From positions 1 through 36,829 of the forward strand of contig JAUZOM010000018.1 in the NCBI GenBank assembly GCA_030706465.1: 36,829 nucleotides of DNA, in the 5' to 3' direction. The stretch comes from Bacteroidota bacterium (GTDB lineage Bacteria; Bacteroidota; Bacteroidia; Bacteroidales; Paludibacteraceae). Positions 15,446-36,502 of the stretch are shown one piece after another. Each line of letters starts with the position of its first letter. The first letter of the stretch is position 1. The translations under genes were made by a program, and so were the position numbers. The notes beneath the pieces were generated by a model. The model was not told the DNA's origin. It was given only the letters and a program-made list of their open reading frames with translations, and did not search any database.

Positions 15446-16207
15446 ATGAAAAATATTATTATAAATGCAGATGATTTTGGCAAAAATAAAGAGGTAAACC
15501 TTGCTATCATGGCATTGATGGATTCAAATCTCTGTATGGATACCACACTCCTTGTAAATTTTGAGGACTCCGCGCAGGCAGCTGATCTGGCGACCTCAAC
15601 GAAAAAAAAGAATAATGTGGGTATCCACCTCAATTTAACGGAAGGTTTCCCTTTGACCGCTAAAATCAGAAATGAAAGCCGGTTCTGTGACAAGGATGGT
15701 TTGTTTCATTACAATAAAGTCAAACGAATCGTACACCTTACCAGTTCGGAAAAGAAAGCCGTTCAGGAAGAACTGACAAGCCAAATACAATTATGCCGGA
15801 AACTTGGGATTCCTATTTCGCATGCCGACTCGCATAACCATGTTCATGAAGAGCCGGGAATGCTCCTTTTGCTTATTGATATTTTGAGAAAAGAGAATAT
15901 CCCTTTTTTAAGGCTTACAAACAACATTGAAAAAACATCCTTTGTAAACAGATTTTACCGGGATTCATATAATTCCATATTATATTTTCACAAACTAACC
16001 AGGACTGATTATTTTGGAAGCACTTTAAATTTACGGAATTACAAAAAGCCATTTAAAGAAAATTCAATCATTGAACTCATGGTTCACCCGGGACAAATAA
16101 TTAACAATCAAATTTATGACGTTTACTCGAAAGAAAATCTAAGCCTGCATTTACCTGGAATAATTGAAGGAAACAGATTAACGTCTTATCATCAATTTGC
16201 TAAATAG
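15446..16207 (+). CDS. YdjC/ChbG-family carbohydrate deacetylase
   Basis: A 253-residue protein with the whole YdjC signature: NADDFG (7-12, metal-binding Asp pair), GIHLNLTEG with His61, HADSHNHVH (126-134) and ELMVHPG near residue 213. These are the metal and catalytic residues of the family, which removes acetyl groups from N-acetylated sugars such as chito-oligosaccharides. In a polysaccharide locus it would create free amino groups on the repeat unit or its lipid-linked precursor (inference). It is cytoplasmic, with no signal peptide. It is followed after 50 nt by a GT4 gene, so it probably acts at the same assembly step. Confidence 0.9.
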   Translation: MKNIIINADDFGKNKEVNLAIMALMDSNLCMDTTLLVNFEDSAQAADLATSTKKKNNVGIHLNLTEGFPLTAKIRNESRFCDKDGLFHYNKVKRIVHLTSSEKKAVQEELTSQIQLCRKLGIPISHADSHNHVHEEPGMLLLLIDILRKENIPFLRLTNNIEKTSFVNRFYRDSYNSILYFHKLTRTDYFGSTLNLRNYKKPFKENSIIELMVHPGQIINNQIYDVYSKENLSLHLPGIIEGNRLTSYHQFAK

Positions 16208-20620: not shown

Positions 20621-21715
20621 ATGAAAAACATTCTTTTTATCCTCCATCTTCCACCGCCGGTACATGGTTCTTCTATCGTTGGCCAAACAATTAAGAATAG
20701 CACACTCATAAACAGTTCTCTCGATTGTCGCTATATAAGCTACCTCATTTCCAGCACTATCGATGAAATAGGCAAAATGAGCTTCTTAAAGATATATCGG
20801 TTTCTTATTGTCTGGTCTAGGTTATTGGTGGAAATTATAAAACATAAACCTGAAGTTTGTTACCTGACATTGACAAGCAGGGGTGCCGCTTTTTACAAAG
20901 ATGTTTTGTTGGTGGCTACATTGCGTTTCTTTCGCATAAAACGGGTATATCATCTTCACAACAAAGGCGTTAGCCAAAATAATTCAAAAAAATTAAATAA
21001 TATTCTTTATAGGTATGTATTTAATGATGCTGACATAATTCTCCTTTCAAATCAGTTATACCATGATATTGAAGCCTACGTCCCGCAGTCGCGTGTGCAT
21101 ATTTGCCCAAATGGAATTGAAGACACTTCTGGAAATTTTAAACCTCGTCTTTTCCCAAAAGAGAGACCTGTAAAGATCCTGTTTTTATCAAACTTGATTG
21201 AATCCAAAGGAGTTTTTGTATTGATAGATGCCTGCTCCATTTTACGACAAAAAGGGATCAACTTTGAATGTGATTTTATTGGTGCTGAGGGAAATTTGAA
21301 TGCTGCTCAATTCAATGAAAGAGTCAGACAAAATCAATTATCGACAAAAGTCAGATTCCTGGGTAAAAAATATGGCAAAGAGAAGCAGGAAGCATTCGCG
21401 GATGCGGAAATTTTCGCATTCCCCACTTATTATTCCAATGAGTGTTTTCCATTGGTACTCTTAGAAGCCATGTGCGATAGTTTACCGGTTGTAACTACAT
21501 TTGAAGGAGGAATTCAGGATATCGTTGAAGATGGTATGACAGGTTTCCTGGTTCCTCAGAAAAATGCGGAAGTATTAGCCGAAAAATTAGAAGCATTAAT
21601 TAAAAATTCGGAATTGCGTCAACTGATGGGAAAGGCCGGAAGACAAAAATACGAAAACGAATTTACCTTAAACAAATTTGAACATCGGATGAAGGAAATT
21701 CTTGAACAAATTTAA
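20621..21715 (+). CDS. GT4-type glycosyltransferase (paralogue pair B, first copy)
   Basis: A 364-residue GT-B enzyme starting KNILFILHLPPPVHGSSIVG, with the glycine-rich loop that binds the acceptor side. The C-domain has ILFLSNLIESKGVFVLIDAC, then FPTYYSNECFPLVLLEAM with E-x7-E E274...E282, and PVVTTFEGGIQDIVEDGMTG. It is closely related over its whole length to the gene starting at 28464 (same first 17 residues), so the pair arose by duplication about 8 kb apart. Donor unknown; such proteins are common in Bacteroidota capsule loci. Confidence 0.9.
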   Translation: MKNILFILHLPPPVHGSSIVGQTIKNSTLINSSLDCRYISYLISSTIDEIGKMSFLKIYRFLIVWSRLLVEIIKHKPEVCYLTLTSRGAAFYKDVLLVATLRFFRIKRVYHLHNKGVSQNNSKKLNNILYRYVFNDADIILLSNQLYHDIEAYVPQSRVHICPNGIEDTSGNFKPRLFPKERPVKILFLSNLIESKGVFVLIDACSILRQKGINFECDFIGAEGNLNAAQFNERVRQNQLSTKVRFLGKKYGKEKQEAFADAEIFAFPTYYSNECFPLVLLEAMCDSLPVVTTFEGGIQDIVEDGMTGFLVPQKNAEVLAEKLEALIKNSELRQLMGKAGRQKYENEFTLNKFEHRMKEILEQI

Positions 21716-21724
21716 TTAAATTAT

Positions 21725-21855
21725 TAGTATTCTCCGATAAGCCTAATTATCAAAAAGTACGCTAAGACGCAATGACACAATCTGCTGTTTTTAAGTTGTA
21801 TAATTTTAGCGTCTTCGTGTATTTGCGTACAAAAAACACGTTGAGGAGTGGACTC
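21725..21855. mobile_element. 131-bp MITE-like element, copy A
   Basis: It matches 36372-36502 in the same orientation and at the same length, about 88% identical by eye. Ends are TAGTATTCTCC (left) and GGAGTGGACTC (right); copy B shows the inverted repeat better. Inside, GTACGCTAAGACGC and GCGTC...GCGTAC can pair imperfectly. It has no reading frame. It fills most of the 198-bp gap between the GT4 gene and the first acyltransferase gene. Confidence 0.7.
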
Positions 21856-21913
21856 AACTTTTGTAATTTAAAATTATTCACAGAAAAACCAGTTGTTCCA
21901 TTAAAAATAATCT

Positions 21914-22933
21914 ATGATTTCAATTGAATGTTTCAACGGATTGCCAATAGAACATGAATCCTTTCTGATCGAAAGATATAATTCATTCTTTACTACCTGC
22001 CGGTATTTGGAATTATATTATACTGCTTTCGATATAAATTACATGCTTGTATATAAAAATAGTGACCTGATTGAATTATTAATATTCGGAAATAAAGGAG
22101 ATACTTCTACATGCTTCAATTTGCTCGCTAAAATTGATCAAGACATCATGCTGGAATGTACTAAAAGATTATTAGAGGCATATCCTTCGGTACAGAAAAT
22201 TGAAATTGTAGCATCCTATAAAAATTACGCTTTAAAAAGGTCTTTTTTGACTTCTACATTTGATGACTACATTTTAAACTTACCTGCGACAATGGATGAT
22301 TATTATTTGGGACTTGGCCGTAGTACACGTCAAACTATAAAAAATCGCAAAGTAAGGTTGTTAAGGGATTACCCGGACGTTAATTTTGTTACAAAACAGG
22401 GAACTGAGATTGAAGAAAGTATTATTGATAGTATCATACGATTGAATACAGAACGAATGATACAAAAAGGAATAGTTCCCGGAAGAAACAATACCGACAA
22501 ACATAATATTTATAGCTATTCACAACACTATGGTTACGTAGTCTATTTAGAAATAGATGGCGTAATGGCAGCTGGTGCCATATCTTACATATTAAATAAA
22601 AAAATATACGGACATTTAATCGCACACGATAATAATTTTTCCCGATACAACTTAGGCGAAATATGTGCATTTTATTTAATTCAATCTTCTATTGAAAAAG
22701 GATTATCAGCACTTCATCTTCTATGGGGGAAAAGCGATTTAAAAAAAAGATTATTGGCAAAACCGCATTTATTGTTTTCCTATGTTATCTATAGATCATA
22801 TTCTTTAGGTTATATTTTTAATAAAGCCAAAACGACCGTTCTTCTTATTATGATTAGAATTGAACAATCAGATTTTATTAAACCTCTTAGAAATGCCATT
22901 AAAGGCTATCGAAGAAAAAATTGGAAGGGATAA
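21914..22933 (+). CDS. GNAT/FemAB-like acyltransferase, tandem copy 1
   Basis: A 339-residue soluble protein. A basic segment RSTRQTIKNRKVRLLRDYP (136-154) precedes the C-terminal GNAT-like half with YLEIDGVMAAGAISYILNKK (211-230), AHDNNFSRYNLGEICAFYLI (237-256), and GLSALHLLWGKSDLKKRL (263-280). This layout is that of the CelD/BcsL and FemAB-like acetyltransferase group (Acetyltransf_6 in Pfam terms, from memory). These transfer acyl or aminoacyl groups to sugars or peptides; the substrate is unknown. It is the first of three equal-length tandem copies and has a 5' flank unlike the other two. Its 3' end and 3' flank are nearly identical to those of copy 2. Confidence 0.75.
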   Translation: MISIECFNGLPIEHESFLIERYNSFFTTCRYLELYYTAFDINYMLVYKNSDLIELLIFGNKGDTSTCFNLLAKIDQDIMLECTKRLLEAYPSVQKIEIVASYKNYALKRSFLTSTFDDYILNLPATMDDYYLGLGRSTRQTIKNRKVRLLRDYPDVNFVTKQGTEIEESIIDSIIRLNTERMIQKGIVPGRNNTDKHNIYSYSQHYGYVVYLEIDGVMAAGAISYILNKKIYGHLIAHDNNFSRYNLGEICAFYLIQSSIEKGLSALHLLWGKSDLKKRLLAKPHLLFSYVIYRSYSLGYIFNKAKTTVLLIMIRIEQSDFIKPLRNAIKGYRRKNWKG

Positions 22934-23557
22934 TTTCCGATATTGAACTTCATTTACTTCCCCAACGAAGTTTCCTTTAAATTGCCTTCTCAAATCAGGA
23001 TACAAGAACTATTGAAAACGATTTTAAGCGCGTCATTCCGTAATGGTTGATAACCTGTAAAAAGAATGAATCTTCTTTCAAACAAAATAAAAAAAACAAA
23101 CAAAAAGCTTGCTACATTGATTAAGTAACAGAAACTAAATAATGTTGTATTATTTTAATTTAAATACGGGAATAAGGGTTAGGTCTTTTTGCTTAATATT
23201 TCTCTTATGTAACTAAATTTTAATTAGCACAATATCAGCATTTTATAAAGTTGCTTTTATTGGGGCTTTTAGCATCCTTTTGAGGGACTACTAAGGGGTA
23301 AAAACAAAAATAAGGTTTTTAATTTAAAGCCCTTATTTTTTAGGCAGTAACCCTCCGTAGAAAACCTAACTCCCTCCTATTAAAACCCTTATTTTCTTAT
23401 TTAGAAAAACTGTTTTAGTCGTATTTTTCATGAAATAAAACAGGACAATATATTGTTCCTACTACTTAAGTTGAAAATCCATAGATAATTTCTGCCTAAA
23501 ATTAGCCCCCAGATAATGATAACAATATGTTTTTTTACGCACTTTTATAATTAATGT
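22934..23557. repeat. Duplicated spacer 1, interrupted by a 341-bp insertion
   Basis: Positions 22934-23124 match 24578-24768 (3' flank), and 23470-23557 match the rest of 24578-24856 (5' flank). The length is 624 bp against 279 bp in spacer 2; the difference, 345, equals the 341-bp element plus a 4-bp target duplication. Both spacers keep AGTTTCCTTTAAATT and GATAATGATAACAATATG. No gene is present. Confidence 0.85.
23125..23465. mobile_element. 341-bp MITE-like insertion with TTAA duplication
   Basis: TTAA occurs at both borders (23121-23124 and 23466-23469). The ends are an imperfect inverted repeat: GTAACAGAAACTA (23125-23137) against GTAGTAGGAACAA read from the right end (23465-23453), 9 of 13 matching. 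The empty site is preserved in the second spacer as CATTGATTAGGTTGAAAATC. Inside, AAAAATAAGG and CCTTATTTTT form a 10-bp stem, and AATAAGGG-type repeats recur. It has no reading frame, so a transposase would have to act in trans. Confidence 0.75.
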
Positions 23558-24577
23558 ATGATATCAATCGAATGTTACAGCGGATTGCCAATAGAATATG
23601 AATCTTTCCTAATAGAACGGTACAATTCATTTATAACCACTTGTCGGTATATCGAAGTATATTGTACTACTTATGATATAAACTACATGCTTGTATATAA
23701 GAACAATACCCTGATTGAATTATTAATATTTGGCAATAAAGGGAACACCTCTACATGCTTTAATTCACTTGTTGATATTGACCAAAATATCGTTGCAGAA
23801 TTCACAAAAGAAATTTTCGAGAAATACTCTTCCATTCAAAAGATTGATATCGTAGCCTCTTATAAAGAATATACCTTTCCAAAAGCTGTATTGTGCCCGA
23901 GATCTGATGATCATATTTTATACTTGCCTTCTACTATGGAAGATTATTATTCGAAACTTGGGTCAAGCACCCGCCAAACCATAAAAAATCGTAAAGTAAG
24001 GTTGTTGAGGGATTACCCGGAAGTTAATTTTGTCACTAAATATGGCGACGAGATTGAAGAGAACATTGTGGATAAAATCATACAATTGAACTGCAATCGA
24101 ATGAAAAACAAGGGAATAATTCCCAGAATAGATGACACCTATAAGAATAATATCTTTAAGTATTCACAGTACTACGGATGTGTTGCCTATCTGGAAATAG
24201 ATGGAATGGTTGTGGCGGGCTGTATATCTAGTATAATAAATAAAGGTATTTTCGGACATGTGAATGCACATGATGATAATTTTTCTAAATACAATATAGG
24301 CGAAATCTGCGCATTTTACATAATACAAACTTCCATTGAAAAAGGATTATCAACATTTCATCTTCTATGGGGGAAAAGCGATTTAAAAAAAAGATTATTG
24401 GCAAAACCGCATGTATTGTTTTCCTATATTATCTATAGATCATATTCTTTAGATTATATTTTTAATAAAGCCAAAACGACCGTTCTCCTTATTATGATTA
24501 GAATTAAACAATCAGAATTTATTGAACCTCTTAGAAATGCCATTAAAGGCTATCGAAGAAAAAATTGGAAAGGATAA
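23558..24577 (+). CDS. GNAT/FemAB-like acyltransferase, tandem copy 2 (chimera)
   Basis: A 339-residue protein with the same domain order as copy 1. Its N-terminal three-quarters follow copy 3 (YSGLPIEYESFLIERYNSF, SLVDIDQ, EFTKEIFEKYSSIQKIDIVA, KIIQLNCNRM, SQYYGCVAYLEIDG). From about residue 258 it follows copy 1 almost exactly (EKGLS.FHLLWGKSDLKKRL, YIFNKAKTTVLLIMIRI, GYRRKNWKG). Its 5' flank also matches that of copy 3 and its 3' flank that of copy 1. This is the expected product of one unequal crossover between copies 1 and 3, with the junction near 24290-24340. It is intact and presumably expressed. The hybrid may combine one copy's acceptor half with another's acyl-CoA or aminoacyl half. 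Confidence 0.75.
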   Translation: MISIECYSGLPIEYESFLIERYNSFITTCRYIEVYCTTYDINYMLVYKNNTLIELLIFGNKGNTSTCFNSLVDIDQNIVAEFTKEIFEKYSSIQKIDIVASYKEYTFPKAVLCPRSDDHILYLPSTMEDYYSKLGSSTRQTIKNRKVRLLRDYPEVNFVTKYGDEIEENIVDKIIQLNCNRMKNKGIIPRIDDTYKNNIFKYSQYYGCVAYLEIDGMVVAGCISSIINKGIFGHVNAHDDNFSKYNIGEICAFYIIQTSIEKGLSTFHLLWGKSDLKKRLLAKPHVLFSYIIYRSYSLDYIFNKAKTTVLLIMIRIKQSEFIEPLRNAIKGYRRKNWKG

Positions 24578-24856
24578 TTTCCGTTATTGAACTTCATTTA
24601 CTTTCTCAACAAAGTTTCCTTTAAATTACCGACTCAAATCAAGATACAAAGGACTTATTGAAAACGATTTTAAACACGTCATTCCGTAATGGTTGATAAC
24701 CAGTAAAAAGAATTAGCCCTCTTTCAAACAAAATAAAAGAAACAAACAAAAACCTTGCTTCATTGATTAGGTTGAAAATCCATAGATAATTTCTGCCGAA
24801 ATTAGCCCCTGGATAATGATAACAATATGTTTTTTACACACTTTTATAACTAATGT
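24578..24856. repeat. Duplicated spacer 2 (empty site)
   Basis: A 279-bp spacer between acyltransferase copies 2 and 3, the uninterrupted counterpart of 22934-23557. GATTAGGTTGAAA at about 24765-24777 marks the place where the other spacer carries the 341-bp element. No gene is present. Confidence 0.85.
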
Positions 24857-25876
24857 ATGATTTCAATTGAATGTTACAGCGGATTGCCAATAGAATATGA
24901 ATCCTTTCTAATAGAGCGGTACAATTCATTTATAACCACTTGCCGGTACATTGAAGTAAATTATAGCTCCTATGAAATCAATTACATGCTTATATATGAG
25001 AATGACATCCTGATTGAATTAATATTATTCGGGAATAAAGGGAACACTTCTACATGCCTTAATTCTCTTGTTGATATTGATCAAGATATCGTGGCAGAAT
25101 TCACAAAAGAAATTTTCGAGAAATACTCTTCCATTCAAAAAATTGATATTGTAGCCTCTTATAAAGAATATCTCTTGCCAAAAGCTGTATCGTGTCCGAA
25201 ATCTGATGATCATATTTTGAACTTACCCCAGACGATAGATGATTACTATTTGGAACTTGGATATCACACACGCAAAAACATTAAAAATCGTAAAGTACGT
25301 TTATCAAGGGATTACCCGGGAGTTAGTTTTGTTACTAAATACGGTGATGAGATTGAAGAGAATATTGTGAATAAAATCATACAATTGAACTGCAACCGAA
25401 TGAAAAAGAAGGGAATAATTCCCGGAATAGACTACACGTATAAGAATAATATCTATAAGTACTCTCAGTACTACGGATGTGTTGCCTATCTGGAAATAGA
25501 TGGGGTGATTGCAGCGGGTTGTATAGCTACTATATTAAACAAAGAAATATTCTTACATGTTATAGCCCATGATGATAGTTTTTCTAAATACAATGTAGGG
25601 GAGGTATGCATATTTAATTTAATCCAATTCTCGATTGAGAAAGGAATTTCAACAGTCCATTTTTTATGGGGAGAAACTGAACTGAAAAAAAGATTTTTAG
25701 CTAAACCTCATTTATTGTTCACCTATGTTCTATTTAGATCCTATTCCCTTGAATACATTTTAAGAACCGTTAAAACAATATTTTTCAGCGTTTTGAGCAA
25801 ATTTGGGTATTCTAAACTCACCCAACCGTTTAAAAATGCAATTAAATTTTACCGCAAAAAGAGCTGGAAGGTGTGA
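24857..25876 (+). CDS. GNAT/FemAB-like acyltransferase, tandem copy 3
   Basis: A 339-residue protein, same length and architecture as copies 1 and 2. The N-terminus is close to copy 2 (YSGLPIEYESFLIERYNSF, GNTSTCLNSLVDIDQDIVAE). The central basic segment is changed (YHTRKNIKNRKVRLSRDYPG against RSTRQTIKNRKVRLLRDYP in copy 1). The C-terminal third differs most (FLWGETELKKRFLAKPH, then SLEYILRTVKTIFFSVLSKF, ending FYRKKSWKV). This divergence points to a different acceptor or a membrane-peripheral tail of different character. It is followed after 57 nt by the NodB-type deacetylase gene, suggesting linked deacetylation and acylation (inference). Confidence 0.75.
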   Translation: MISIECYSGLPIEYESFLIERYNSFITTCRYIEVNYSSYEINYMLIYENDILIELILFGNKGNTSTCLNSLVDIDQDIVAEFTKEIFEKYSSIQKIDIVASYKEYLLPKAVSCPKSDDHILNLPQTIDDYYLELGYHTRKNIKNRKVRLSRDYPGVSFVTKYGDEIEENIVNKIIQLNCNRMKKKGIIPGIDYTYKNNIYKYSQYYGCVAYLEIDGVIAAGCIATILNKEIFLHVIAHDDSFSKYNVGEVCIFNLIQFSIEKGISTVHFLWGETELKKRFLAKPHLLFTYVLFRSYSLEYILRTVKTIFFSVLSKFGYSKLTQPFKNAIKFYRKKSWKV

Positions 25877-25933
25877 TTGTTAGTACGGGCTAGATTATAA
25901 AGATAATTCTTATCACTTAAAAAATCAACAAAC

Positions 25934-26713
25934 ATGATTTTAACTACAAGTTGGGATGATGGTCATCCCCTTGATCTCAAATTATTGGGATTGCTTGAGA
26001 AATATAATTTGAAAGCAACTTTCTATATACCCTTATCGAATTCAGAGAATCCGGTTATGGGAAAGAGCCTTATACAAGAGCTCTCAACCTATCAGGAAAT
26101 CGGAGGGCATACTATAAGTCACACCTATTTGAATCATCTGAGTGATCCGGTTGCAAAATATGAAATAACGCAATGTAAAGTTCTTTTAGAGGAAATTATT
26201 GGTAAGCCGCTATATGCCTTTTGTTTCCCGGGTGGTAAATTTTCAAATCGGGATGTTTTATTTATGAAAAATGCAGGTTATTTGTTTGGAAGAACAACAA
26301 ATCTGTTGTCTGCCTCGAATCCTAAGTTCAACTTAATGAATACTTCAATCCAAACTCAAAACCATTCAAGCACCACCTTATTGCGCCATTGTATAAAACG
26401 ATTCAACATAGGACCAATCCTACACAATTCTTTTTTCCTCCCATTTAATAAAAGCTTTCTTAAACTGGCGGAATATAACCTTTTAAAATGTAGGGAATCA
26501 AACAGTGTGTTTCATATTTGGGGCCATTCCTGGGAGATAGAGCGGTTTAATTTATGGAATCAGTTAGAAGATTTATTCAAACTAATAAGTTCCCTCGATC
26601 GGATAACCTATTTGAATAACACGGAAACCTGGAAGTCTATTTGTGAAAAATCGAAGACCAGAATACTTTCTTTTAATAAAAATGACAAAGAAACAGTTGG
26701 AATAACTTTGTAA
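25934..26713 (+). CDS. NodB-type polysaccharide deacetylase
   Basis: A 259-residue protein with no signal peptide, so probably cytoplasmic. Motif 1 is TSWDDGHPLD (Asp8 and Asp9) and motif 2 is GGHTISH (His59, His63), the CE4 metal site. KATFYIPL and YAFCFPGGKF fill the expected barrel strands, and GYLFGRTTN follows. The last HIWGHSWEIERFN gives the leaving-group His. All the usual catalytic residues are present. Known family role: removal of N- or O-acetyl groups from carbohydrates. Acting before export, it likely modifies a lipid-linked intermediate. It is between the acyltransferase triplet and a GT4 gene. Confidence 0.9.
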   Translation: MILTTSWDDGHPLDLKLLGLLEKYNLKATFYIPLSNSENPVMGKSLIQELSTYQEIGGHTISHTYLNHLSDPVAKYEITQCKVLLEEIIGKPLYAFCFPGGKFSNRDVLFMKNAGYLFGRTTNLLSASNPKFNLMNTSIQTQNHSSTTLLRHCIKRFNIGPILHNSFFLPFNKSFLKLAEYNLLKCRESNSVFHIWGHSWEIERFNLWNQLEDLFKLISSLDRITYLNNTETWKSICEKSKTRILSFNKNDKETVGITL

Positions 26714-28463: not shown

Positions 28464-29564
28464 ATGAAAAACATACTTTTTATTCTTCATTTACCACCTC
28501 CGGTGCATGGTTCTTCTAGAGTAGGCCTATTAATTAAGGAGAGTACACTTATAAACAATGCGTTTGAATGCCGCTATATAAATATCCTGGCTTCCCGTAA
28601 ATTAAATGAAACGGGGCAAACGAGTTACCAGAAAATTTTCCGGTTTGTCGGTCTATGGTTCCAACTGTTAATCGAGATTATTAAGAAAAAACCAGATATT
28701 TGTTATATGGCATTAACATCAACTAGGGCAGCCTTTTATAGGGATGTATTGTTGGTTGCCCTGTTACGTTTTTTCCGGATCAAGCGTGTGTATCATCTAC
28801 ACAACAAAGGAGTTAAACGTTGTCAAAGATCAAAGATAAATAGGCTGCTCTACCGTTTTGTATTCAAGGATGCAGATATAATCATACTTTCAAAACTTTT
28901 GTATAAAGACATTAAGACCTACGTACCCGTATCACGGGTCTATATTTGCCCGAACGGAGTTGAGGAGACTCCTGCAAATATAAAAAACCGAAAAATTAAG
29001 CCGGAGGATCCAGTTCAAATTCTTTTCTTGTCAAATCTCATCCTGTCCAAAGGTATAGTCGTGTTATTGGATGCCTGTAGCCTACTGAAAGAAAAAAAAA
29101 TAGATTTCAAATGTCATTTAATAGGAGGAGAAGATGAGCTGAATGCTTTTCAACTCAACGATTATGTAAAGCAAAAAGGATTAGAAGAACATGTTGACTA
29201 CCTTGGAATGAAATACGGAAGGGAAAAAAGAGCAGCATTCGCTCGGGCGGATATATTTGCATTCCCCACTTGCAATGATTGTTTTCCCTTGGTATTGCTT
29301 GAAGCCATGTGTGATGGTTTACCGGTAGTATCTACTTTTGAAGGAGGAATTCCTGATATAGTCGAAGAAGGGATAACCGGTTTTCTGGTTCCGCAAAGAA
29401 ATGCAAAAGCGCTGGCGGAAAAATTAGAAGTGTTGATTAAAAATCCTGAATTGCGTCAACAGATGGGAAAAGCCGGAAGATTGAAATACAAAAAGGAGTT
29501 TACATTGGAGATATTTGAACAGCGCTTGAAAAATATCCTGCAACATTTGAGCTATCAGGAATGA
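28464..29564 (+). CDS. GT4-type glycosyltransferase (paralogue pair B, second copy)
   Basis: A 366-residue paralogue of the gene starting at 20621 (identical MKNILFILHLPPPVHGSS start; the same AFYRDVLLVALLRFFRIKRV and VYHLHNKGV blocks; the same C-terminus style EFTLEIFEQRLKNIL). In the donor motif the first Glu of E-x7-E is Asp: NDCFPLVLLE (Asp272, Glu280), with two residues missing before it compared with FPTYYSNECFPLVLLE. This may change donor use. The C-terminal QQMGKAGRLKYKKEF is the source-like sequence of a fossil about 1 kb downstream. Confidence 0.9.
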   Translation: MKNILFILHLPPPVHGSSRVGLLIKESTLINNAFECRYINILASRKLNETGQTSYQKIFRFVGLWFQLLIEIIKKKPDICYMALTSTRAAFYRDVLLVALLRFFRIKRVYHLHNKGVKRCQRSKINRLLYRFVFKDADIIILSKLLYKDIKTYVPVSRVYICPNGVEETPANIKNRKIKPEDPVQILFLSNLILSKGIVVLLDACSLLKEKKIDFKCHLIGGEDELNAFQLNDYVKQKGLEEHVDYLGMKYGREKRAAFARADIFAFPTCNDCFPLVLLEAMCDGLPVVSTFEGGIPDIVEEGITGFLVPQRNAKALAEKLEVLIKNPELRQQMGKAGRLKYKKEFTLEIFEQRLKNILQHLSYQE

Positions 29565-36190: not shown

Positions 36191-36371
36191 AGCATCTAAC
36201 TCATTTATCTGTAACATTCATTTACTATCCTACTGCAAGATTCAGCCCTTCAATGAATTGTGAGTCCTCTGTATTTTTCCTTCTTGTGCCATCTGTGTCT
36301 ATAAAACAGTCCAACCTGTTCATAGAATCCAAATTAACGTTTTGTGTTTGCAAAATTCAGATTTATTGTAT

Positions 36372-36502
36372 GAGTCTTCTCCGATAAGTCTAATTATTAA
36401 AAGGCACGCTAAGACGCAATGACGCAAAGTTCTGTTTTTAAGTTGTATAATTTTAGCGTCTACGGGTCTTCGCGTACAAAAAACACGTTGAGGAGTGGAC
36501 TC
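36372..36502. mobile_element. 131-bp MITE-like element, copy B, with 6-bp target duplication
   Basis: Ends GAGTCTTCTCC (left) and GGAGTGGACTC (right) are an imperfect 11-bp inverted repeat. TTGTAT directly flanks both sides (36366-36371 and 36503-36508), which is the expected 6-bp target-site duplication. It matches 21725-21855. No coding capacity. Confidence 0.75.

Follow-up and report, generated by a model that had tools for sequence, protein, structure and literature searches.

The 36,829-nucleotide contig JAUZOM010000018.1 of a Bacteroidota bacterium of the family Paludibacteraceae (GenBank assembly GCA_030706465.1), taken over its whole length and referred to here as the window, bears three tandem and intact open reading frames (ORFs) for acyltransferases of the PF13480 family. 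On the evidence of sequence comparison, the middle gene (copy 2) is a natural hybrid of its neighbours, copies 1 and 3, made by recombination among the copies. The history that we favour, and consider probable, starts from a tandem pair holding one gene of each of two types (A and B, named for the lineages of their N-terminal halves). Unequal crossover within the genes would have turned that pair into a three-copy array with a hybrid at its centre, and further recombination and the entry of an element resembling a miniature inverted-repeat transposable element (MITE) would have followed. More than one step was probably involved.

Copy 1 lies at 21914..22933, copy 2 at 23558..24577 and copy 3 at 24857..25876, all on the forward strand. 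Each encodes 339 residues, in agreement with a preliminary description of this DNA. PF13480 (Acetyltransf_6, GNAT-like) scores 36.7, 33.3 and 34.7 bits against copies 1, 2 and 3 (curated cut-off 22); its best-matching stretch covers residues 136-278 of copy 1 and 137-278 of copy 2, but only 209-278 of copy 3. NCBIfam provides no family match for any of the three genes. The protein of copy 2, searched against its own genome, finds three matches, which are the three array genes only. The ratio of nonsynonymous to synonymous divergence (dN/dS) over the whole gene is 0.19-0.21 in all three comparisons of copies; since the ORFs are also intact, all three copies are probably in use.

The switch within copy 2

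Aligned in register, copies 1 and 2 share 78.8% of their nucleotides, copies 2 and 3 share 80.3%, and copies 1 and 3 share 71.3%. These averages conceal a change of partner along copy 2. In 60-bp windows, its identity with copy 3 rises to 0.90-0.97 at places in the 5' half and lies at 0.53-0.77 from around codon 241 onwards, while its identity with copy 1 is 0.95-0.98 from about codon 261 through the end of the gene. The best single break falls between gene sites 738 and 744 (window positions 24295 and 24301), with an interval of two log-likelihood (lnL) units that reaches 24311. To the left of the break, copy 2 is 3-like at 136 sites and 1-like at 43; to the right, the corresponding counts are 5 and 82. 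Third codon positions alone tell the same story (67:19 on the left, 3:42 on the right), and the walk statistic of the observed order of sites was matched by none of 20000 shuffles. A two-state hidden Markov model (HMM) of copies 1 and 2 begins its high-identity stretch at gene position 778, which is 24335 in the window. The switch zone is accordingly placed at 24295..24334, at codons ~246-259.

The preliminary description had proposed that copy 2 resembles copy 3 to about residue 244 and copy 1 from about residue 258, and that a sliding window and a break test would find an abrupt change of nearest relative between 24290 and 24340. The change is there, at about 24295-24311. What does not survive is a uniform likeness to copy 3 before it: the left part of copy 2 is 3-like only in patches, as described below. 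The part exchanged comprises the last ~80-93 residues; it begins near the end of the single PF13480 match rather than between domains. For that reason the further suggestion of the preliminary description, that the locus may create acyltransferases of new specificity by shuffling domains, is speculative.

Spacers, flanks and the repeated unit

The spacer between copies 1 and 2 (22934..23557, 624 bp) and that between copies 2 and 3 (24578..24856, 279 bp) are homologous from end to end, except for an insertion that is confined to the first. With the insertion set aside, 247 of 277 positions are identical (170/190 and 80/85 when the left and right parts are aligned separately), which bears out the earlier claim that the two spacers are one sequence. 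A search of the genome with the spacer reported no match outside the array.

The outer edges of the array are different. Neither the 5' flank of copy 1 (21716..21913) nor the 3' flank of copy 3 (25877..25933) is homologous to the spacers, and the repeated unit must therefore begin and end inside genes. Its first copy (22691..24334, register offset 1644) comprises the 3' end of copy 1, the spacer and the 5' part of copy 2; its second (24335..25633, register offset 1299) comprises the 3' end of copy 2, the spacer and the 5' part of copy 3. The outer limits of both, 22691 and 25633, are deduced from the position of the switch. Unit ends inside genes are expected from unequal crossover between copies 1 and 3, and they support such an origin. 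If the flanks of a two-copy array are unlike, only its genes are repeated; homologous unequal exchange consequently falls within them and leaves a 3/1 hybrid in the middle, and on this point the preliminary reasoning is sound.

The insertion in the first spacer (23124..23466) has TA on both sides (23122-23123 and 23467-23468) and ends AGTAACAG...CTACTACT; it resembles a MITE of the TA-target kind. It is a dispersed repeat, with at least 49 matching pieces in the genome (its own included) from the best 40 of 101 candidates, several of these pieces being halves of one copy. Since the second spacer has an empty site, the element seems to have entered after the spacer was duplicated. Among the matches listed, there are 14 contigs on which the two outer pieces (~1-77 and 162-339 in a query of 339 bases, some of them shorter) adjoin each other and the inner part is missing, and 9 other places that match ~71-194 only; one repeat thus seems to be nested in another. 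A second dispersed repeat, of ~135 bp, is found at 21722-21855, in the flank just upstream of copy 1, and at 36369-36502, after the last large ORF; it has at least 38 matching places in the genome (its own included) from the best 40 of 73 candidates.

Relatives and gene trees

The acyltransferase family is present in 10 of 48 genomes of the genus, this one included, and in 13 of 300 genomes sampled from the taxonomic family, three of the 13 being genomes outside the genus with distant matches. Eight two-gene arrays occur in seven genomes of the genus. A run of three copies was found in this genome only, among the 48 searched, many of which are fragmented.

Gene trees were built from 25 genes (the three in the window and 22 relatives); the distant matches L026-L028 and the loci L050-L069, found by the contig search described below, stand outside them. 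Two of the relatives carry one in-frame stop each: G010a1, which was kept in the trees, and G019a2, which is also shortened and was kept in the 25-gene trees but left out of a further pair of trees and of the clade tests. In the tree of N-terminal halves, copies 2 and 3 group together with bootstrap support of 98 and a Shimodaira-Hasegawa-like approximate likelihood ratio (SH-aLRT) value of 99.2 (100 and 99 without G019a2). In the tree of C-terminal halves it is copies 1 and 2 that do so (100 and 98.7; again 100 and 99 without G019a2), and an approximately unbiased (AU) test rejects a C-half grouping of copies 2 and 3 (p 2.3e-5).

The N-half tree of all 25 genes also divides the family into two lineages (split support 85/96). 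The A side holds copy 1, at its base, together with five lone copies and pair members, and the B side includes copies 2 and 3. All eight pairs have one A and one B member. On this tree, carriers in the genus usually have a pair of the two types, and a two-copy ancestor is plausible because the eight arrays in seven related genomes each hold both N-half lineages. The seven fetched stretches that bear pairs contain the same polysaccharide-locus genes as the window. A relative of the window's deacetylase (see below) occurs in all eight fetched polysaccharide-locus stretches that carry the acyltransferase, seven with pairs and one with a single gene; five stretches around lone copies have none at E 1e-8.

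Those lone copies (L037-L041, in five genomes) form one clade, with support of 97-100, on a separate branch of the family, and few or none of the other genes of the window's locus were found around them. One relative has two acyltransferase pairs on a single contig, ~8.5 kb apart (L030, G019:C99, 5445-18053); the second gene of its first pair is shortened and has an in-frame stop.

Alignment A1 comprised 23 of the 25 genes, both stop-bearing genes being excluded. A contig search with A1 yielded 20 loci, of which 12 are close (11 from Paludibacter sp., one from a Bacteroidales bacterium) and eight are distant, at 27-30% identity (Geobacter and relatives, Herminiimonas, Noviherbaspirillum, Keguizhuia and Desulfuromonadales). 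With copy 2 as the sole query, the same search produced 24 pattern matches, none of them a relative. A sequence search of PDB with A1 found no convincing solved relative, the best match being a molybdopterin synthase subunit at E 0.47.

Three other genes, G037a1, G010a2 and G002s, have B-type N-terminal halves; the test of a grouping of their C-terminal halves with the rest of the B genes rejects it weakly (p 0.027). A broader proposal, which we regard as distinctly unlikely, is that Paludibacter loci keep a set of A and B acyltransferases whose C-terminal ends are repeatedly exchanged, and that the hybrids (copy 2, and perhaps these three) diversify the acylation of surface polymer. If a genus-wide A/B pairing with C-terminal exchange were true, it would provide a natural test set for identifying the part of the enzyme that sets the choice of acceptor or acyl group.

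Unequal divergence along the repeated unit

The preliminary description attributed the array to a single crossover between copies 1 and 3, which was said to predict exactly this arrangement. The chimera and the anatomy of spacers and flanks agree with that crossover; its sufficiency does not hold up, the two sides of the unit being unequally diverged. Synonymous divergence (dS, Nei-Gojobori) is 0.06 for codons 258-339 of copies 1 and 2 and 0.50 for codons 1-248 of copies 2 and 3, about eightfold apart. One crossover alone would give both sides of the unit one age, and later conversion or replacement must therefore be added. Even the most alike blocks of copies 2 and 3 differ at more third positions (27/165) than do copies 1 and 2 past the switch (3/80; p 0.0035). 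The spacers are intermediate: their 25 differences in 275 positions are not distinguishable from 3/80 (p 0.16) and are lower than 27/165 (p 0.03).

The likeness of copies 2 and 3 is itself discontinuous. Identity is 0.91-0.94 in gene bases 1-92, 153-362 and 451-647, and 0.69-0.72 in bases 93-152, 363-450 and from 648 up to the switch; the data had been inspected before these limits were drawn and the tests that use them were chosen. Codon shuffles show the differences between copies 2 and 3 to be clustered (p 5e-5); in the same 5' region, those between copies 1 and 2 are also mildly clustered (p 0.009), and the value for copies 1 and 3 is p 0.069. At third positions, 27/165 differ in the alike blocks and 24/50 in the first two blocks of lower identity, a rise that suggests either older alleles in the latter or recent homogenisation of the former. 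Selection on the protein may share in the pattern, since dS overlaps between fixed segments (0.54 for codons 149-205 and 0.56 for codons 223-248) while dN differs more (0.06 versus 0.18). Constraint as the cause of the patchiness was considered and set aside: mean identity per block across the family does not track it.

The divergent patches of copy 2 (codons 32-51 and 122-150) have 25 1-like and 13 3-like sites, as against 12 and 106 in the alike blocks, but the patches were picked for their difference from copy 3. A fairer contrast, in raw counts, is weaker: copy 1 agrees with copy 2 at 25 sites of these patches and with copy 3 at 12. There is only a lean, then, towards derivation of the divergent patches from copy 1.

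A proposed history and its rivals

The sequence of events that we propose begins with a tandem pair of long-diverged paralogous acyltransferases, of the copy 1 and copy 3 types, as they are paired in relatives. Copy 1 on one sister chromosome would have paired with copy 3 on the other, with a crossover inside the genes. The product would be a three-copy array with a duplicated spacer and a middle gene that starts as 3-type and ends as 1-type. Later recombination among the copies would have involved conversion between copies 1 and 2 at their 3' ends, or replacement of patches in the 5' half of either copy 2 or copy 3, or both, and the MITE-like element would have entered the first spacer. The hybrid product probably is a working acyltransferase of the polysaccharide pathway. 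We infer the order of events, the exchange between sister chromosomes and the activity of the enzyme.

Several observations count against this history. In its simplest form it is at odds with the synonymous differences, which number ~3 in 52 sites past the switch (copies 1 and 2) and ~54 in 150 sites before it (copies 2 and 3; Fisher p 1e-5). A two-state Viterbi path for copies 2 and 3 over sites 1-738 (-311.2) is no better than a homogeneous rate (-301.9). For the N-terminal half, the AU test does not reject a grouping of copies 1 and 2 (p 0.095, 21.9 lnL units worse); it does reject that grouping when the two are constrained to lie among the A lineage and lone copies (p 0.0175). The A/B split has only moderate support, with copy 1 near its base, and the gene order of the pairs is A-B in five and B-A in three. 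The pairs are known from genus-level relatives, one genome per species, with no strain among them that has copies 1 and 3 only. Their spacers show no likeness to the spacer of the window (there is one 25-base match elsewhere in L033), so that the ancestral pair can be specified by type only.

Gene conversion could also have done all of the work, which we think unlikely. A third gene, of copy 3 type, would have existed beforehand; the 3' end of copy 1 and the adjoining spacer would have overwritten those of copy 2, and there would have been further conversion between copies 2 and 3. It fits this account that copies 1 and 2 are less diverged at silent sites in their 3' ends than copies 2 and 3 are in their 5' halves, and that the likeness of copies 2 and 3 lies in blocks that do not follow conservation in the family. 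It requires a prior event to provide the third gene and second spacer, however, and a tandem duplication of a whole gene should have put spacer-like sequence at an outer edge of the array, where neither side has any.

Homologous recombination could also have imported all or part of copy 2, or of the divergent patches of copies 2 and 3, from a relative (another strain or species). We hold this to be quite improbable as the full explanation; it could equally be a later step of the history proposed above. At the protein level, copy 3 is 90% identical to the B gene of genome G037 over codons 122-150, as against 62% to copy 2, and 82% identical to the B gene of G019 over codons 217-250, as against 65%. 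The nucleotide identities of these matches are only 0.78 and 0.76, respectively, and the best relative of copy 3 over codons 217-259 reaches 0.80. With matches at 0.76-0.80, the compared genomes include no recent donor.

A single unequal crossover followed by point mutation only has the merit that one step covers the anatomy; the alike blocks are broadly similar in overall nucleotide divergence (4-11%), and the failure of the two-state path to improve on a homogeneous rate also speaks for it. The disparity in dS on the two sides of the unit contradicts it and the clustering of differences between copies 2 and 3 weighs further against it, making it highly improbable. Misjoining of copies or strains in assembly deserves equally little credence: the draft genome totals 4.34 Mb in 337 contigs, one of which, of 36.8 kb, is the window, and is 94% complete with 3.05% contamination, but the longest exact direct repeat within 21601-26000 is 56 bp, below ordinary short-read length, so that ordinary reads should bridge the array. 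Copy 2, moreover, departs from each of its parents throughout and thus is not a plain join of them.

The polysaccharide locus

The window bears a polysaccharide locus, in which domain and family searches identify several glycosyltransferases, a WecG/TagA-type transferase and a WcaJ-type sugar-phosphate transferase. Genes for export, a flippase and a polymerase are assigned from a reading of the ORFs alone, not from a search. A polysaccharide deacetylase gene (PF01522; 25934..26713, forward strand) adjoins the array on its 3' side. A second deacetylase-like gene, at 15446-16207, resembles chitin disaccharide deacetylase/HpnK (NCBIfam, under the cut-offs). Nothing in Rfam reaches its gathering threshold.

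Paralogous glycosyltransferase genes, at 20621-21715 and 28464-29564, stand on either side of the array. Their nucleotide identity is patchy (0.83 in codons 1-20, mostly ~0.55-0.73 in the middle and 0.72-0.88 in codons 261-340), and for that reason this pair may also have been touched by conversion.

Comparison with known systems

HfsK, a putative GNAT/FemX-like acyltransferase of the Caulobacter holdfast polysaccharide, is believed to function in the same pathway as the deacetylase HfsH, according to PMC5362036. As there, a putative GNAT acyltransferase is combined with a polysaccharide deacetylase in an exopolysaccharide pathway. The domain and the neighbouring genes make it most likely, as has been suggested for HfsK/HfsH, that the three predicted enzymes acylate sugar amines on the polymer or a precursor, perhaps downstream of the action of the adjacent deacetylase. 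The likeness is drawn from domain and neighbours, and the Paludibacter-like loci differ in having two or three acyltransferases in tandem.

The mechanism of hybridisation is a textbook one, and the event is of a familiar kind. Word searches turned up no paper on this array, judged by title and opening of the abstract among the papers listed. What it offers is a clean case on a single contig, in which a two-gene array in a bacterial polysaccharide locus would have grown to three and by necessity gained a hybrid enzyme. Interlocus gene conversion between duplicated genes, as summarised in PMC3924818 for yeast, mouse and hamster, has tracts that average ~200-500 bp. The array may resemble it in its blocks of raised identity between paralogues (92-240 bp here), although replacement of the intervening blocks would give the same picture; unlike it, the array also shows a change in copy number and a duplicated spacer.

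In the Mycobacterium tuberculosis strain P001-N1377, a tandem duplication has a hybrid PPE segment in its middle, ascribed in PMC12046097 to homologous recombination between two nearby paralogous segments. The two cases share a duplication between paralogues with a recombinant third segment at its centre. The mycobacterial duplication, as described there, is recent, spans 7.3 kb and has a new coding copy identical to ppe57; the acyltransferase array, in contrast, has a unit of ~1.3 kb and a breakpoint far within the coding sequence, and it appears to stem from an old event overlaid by later changes.

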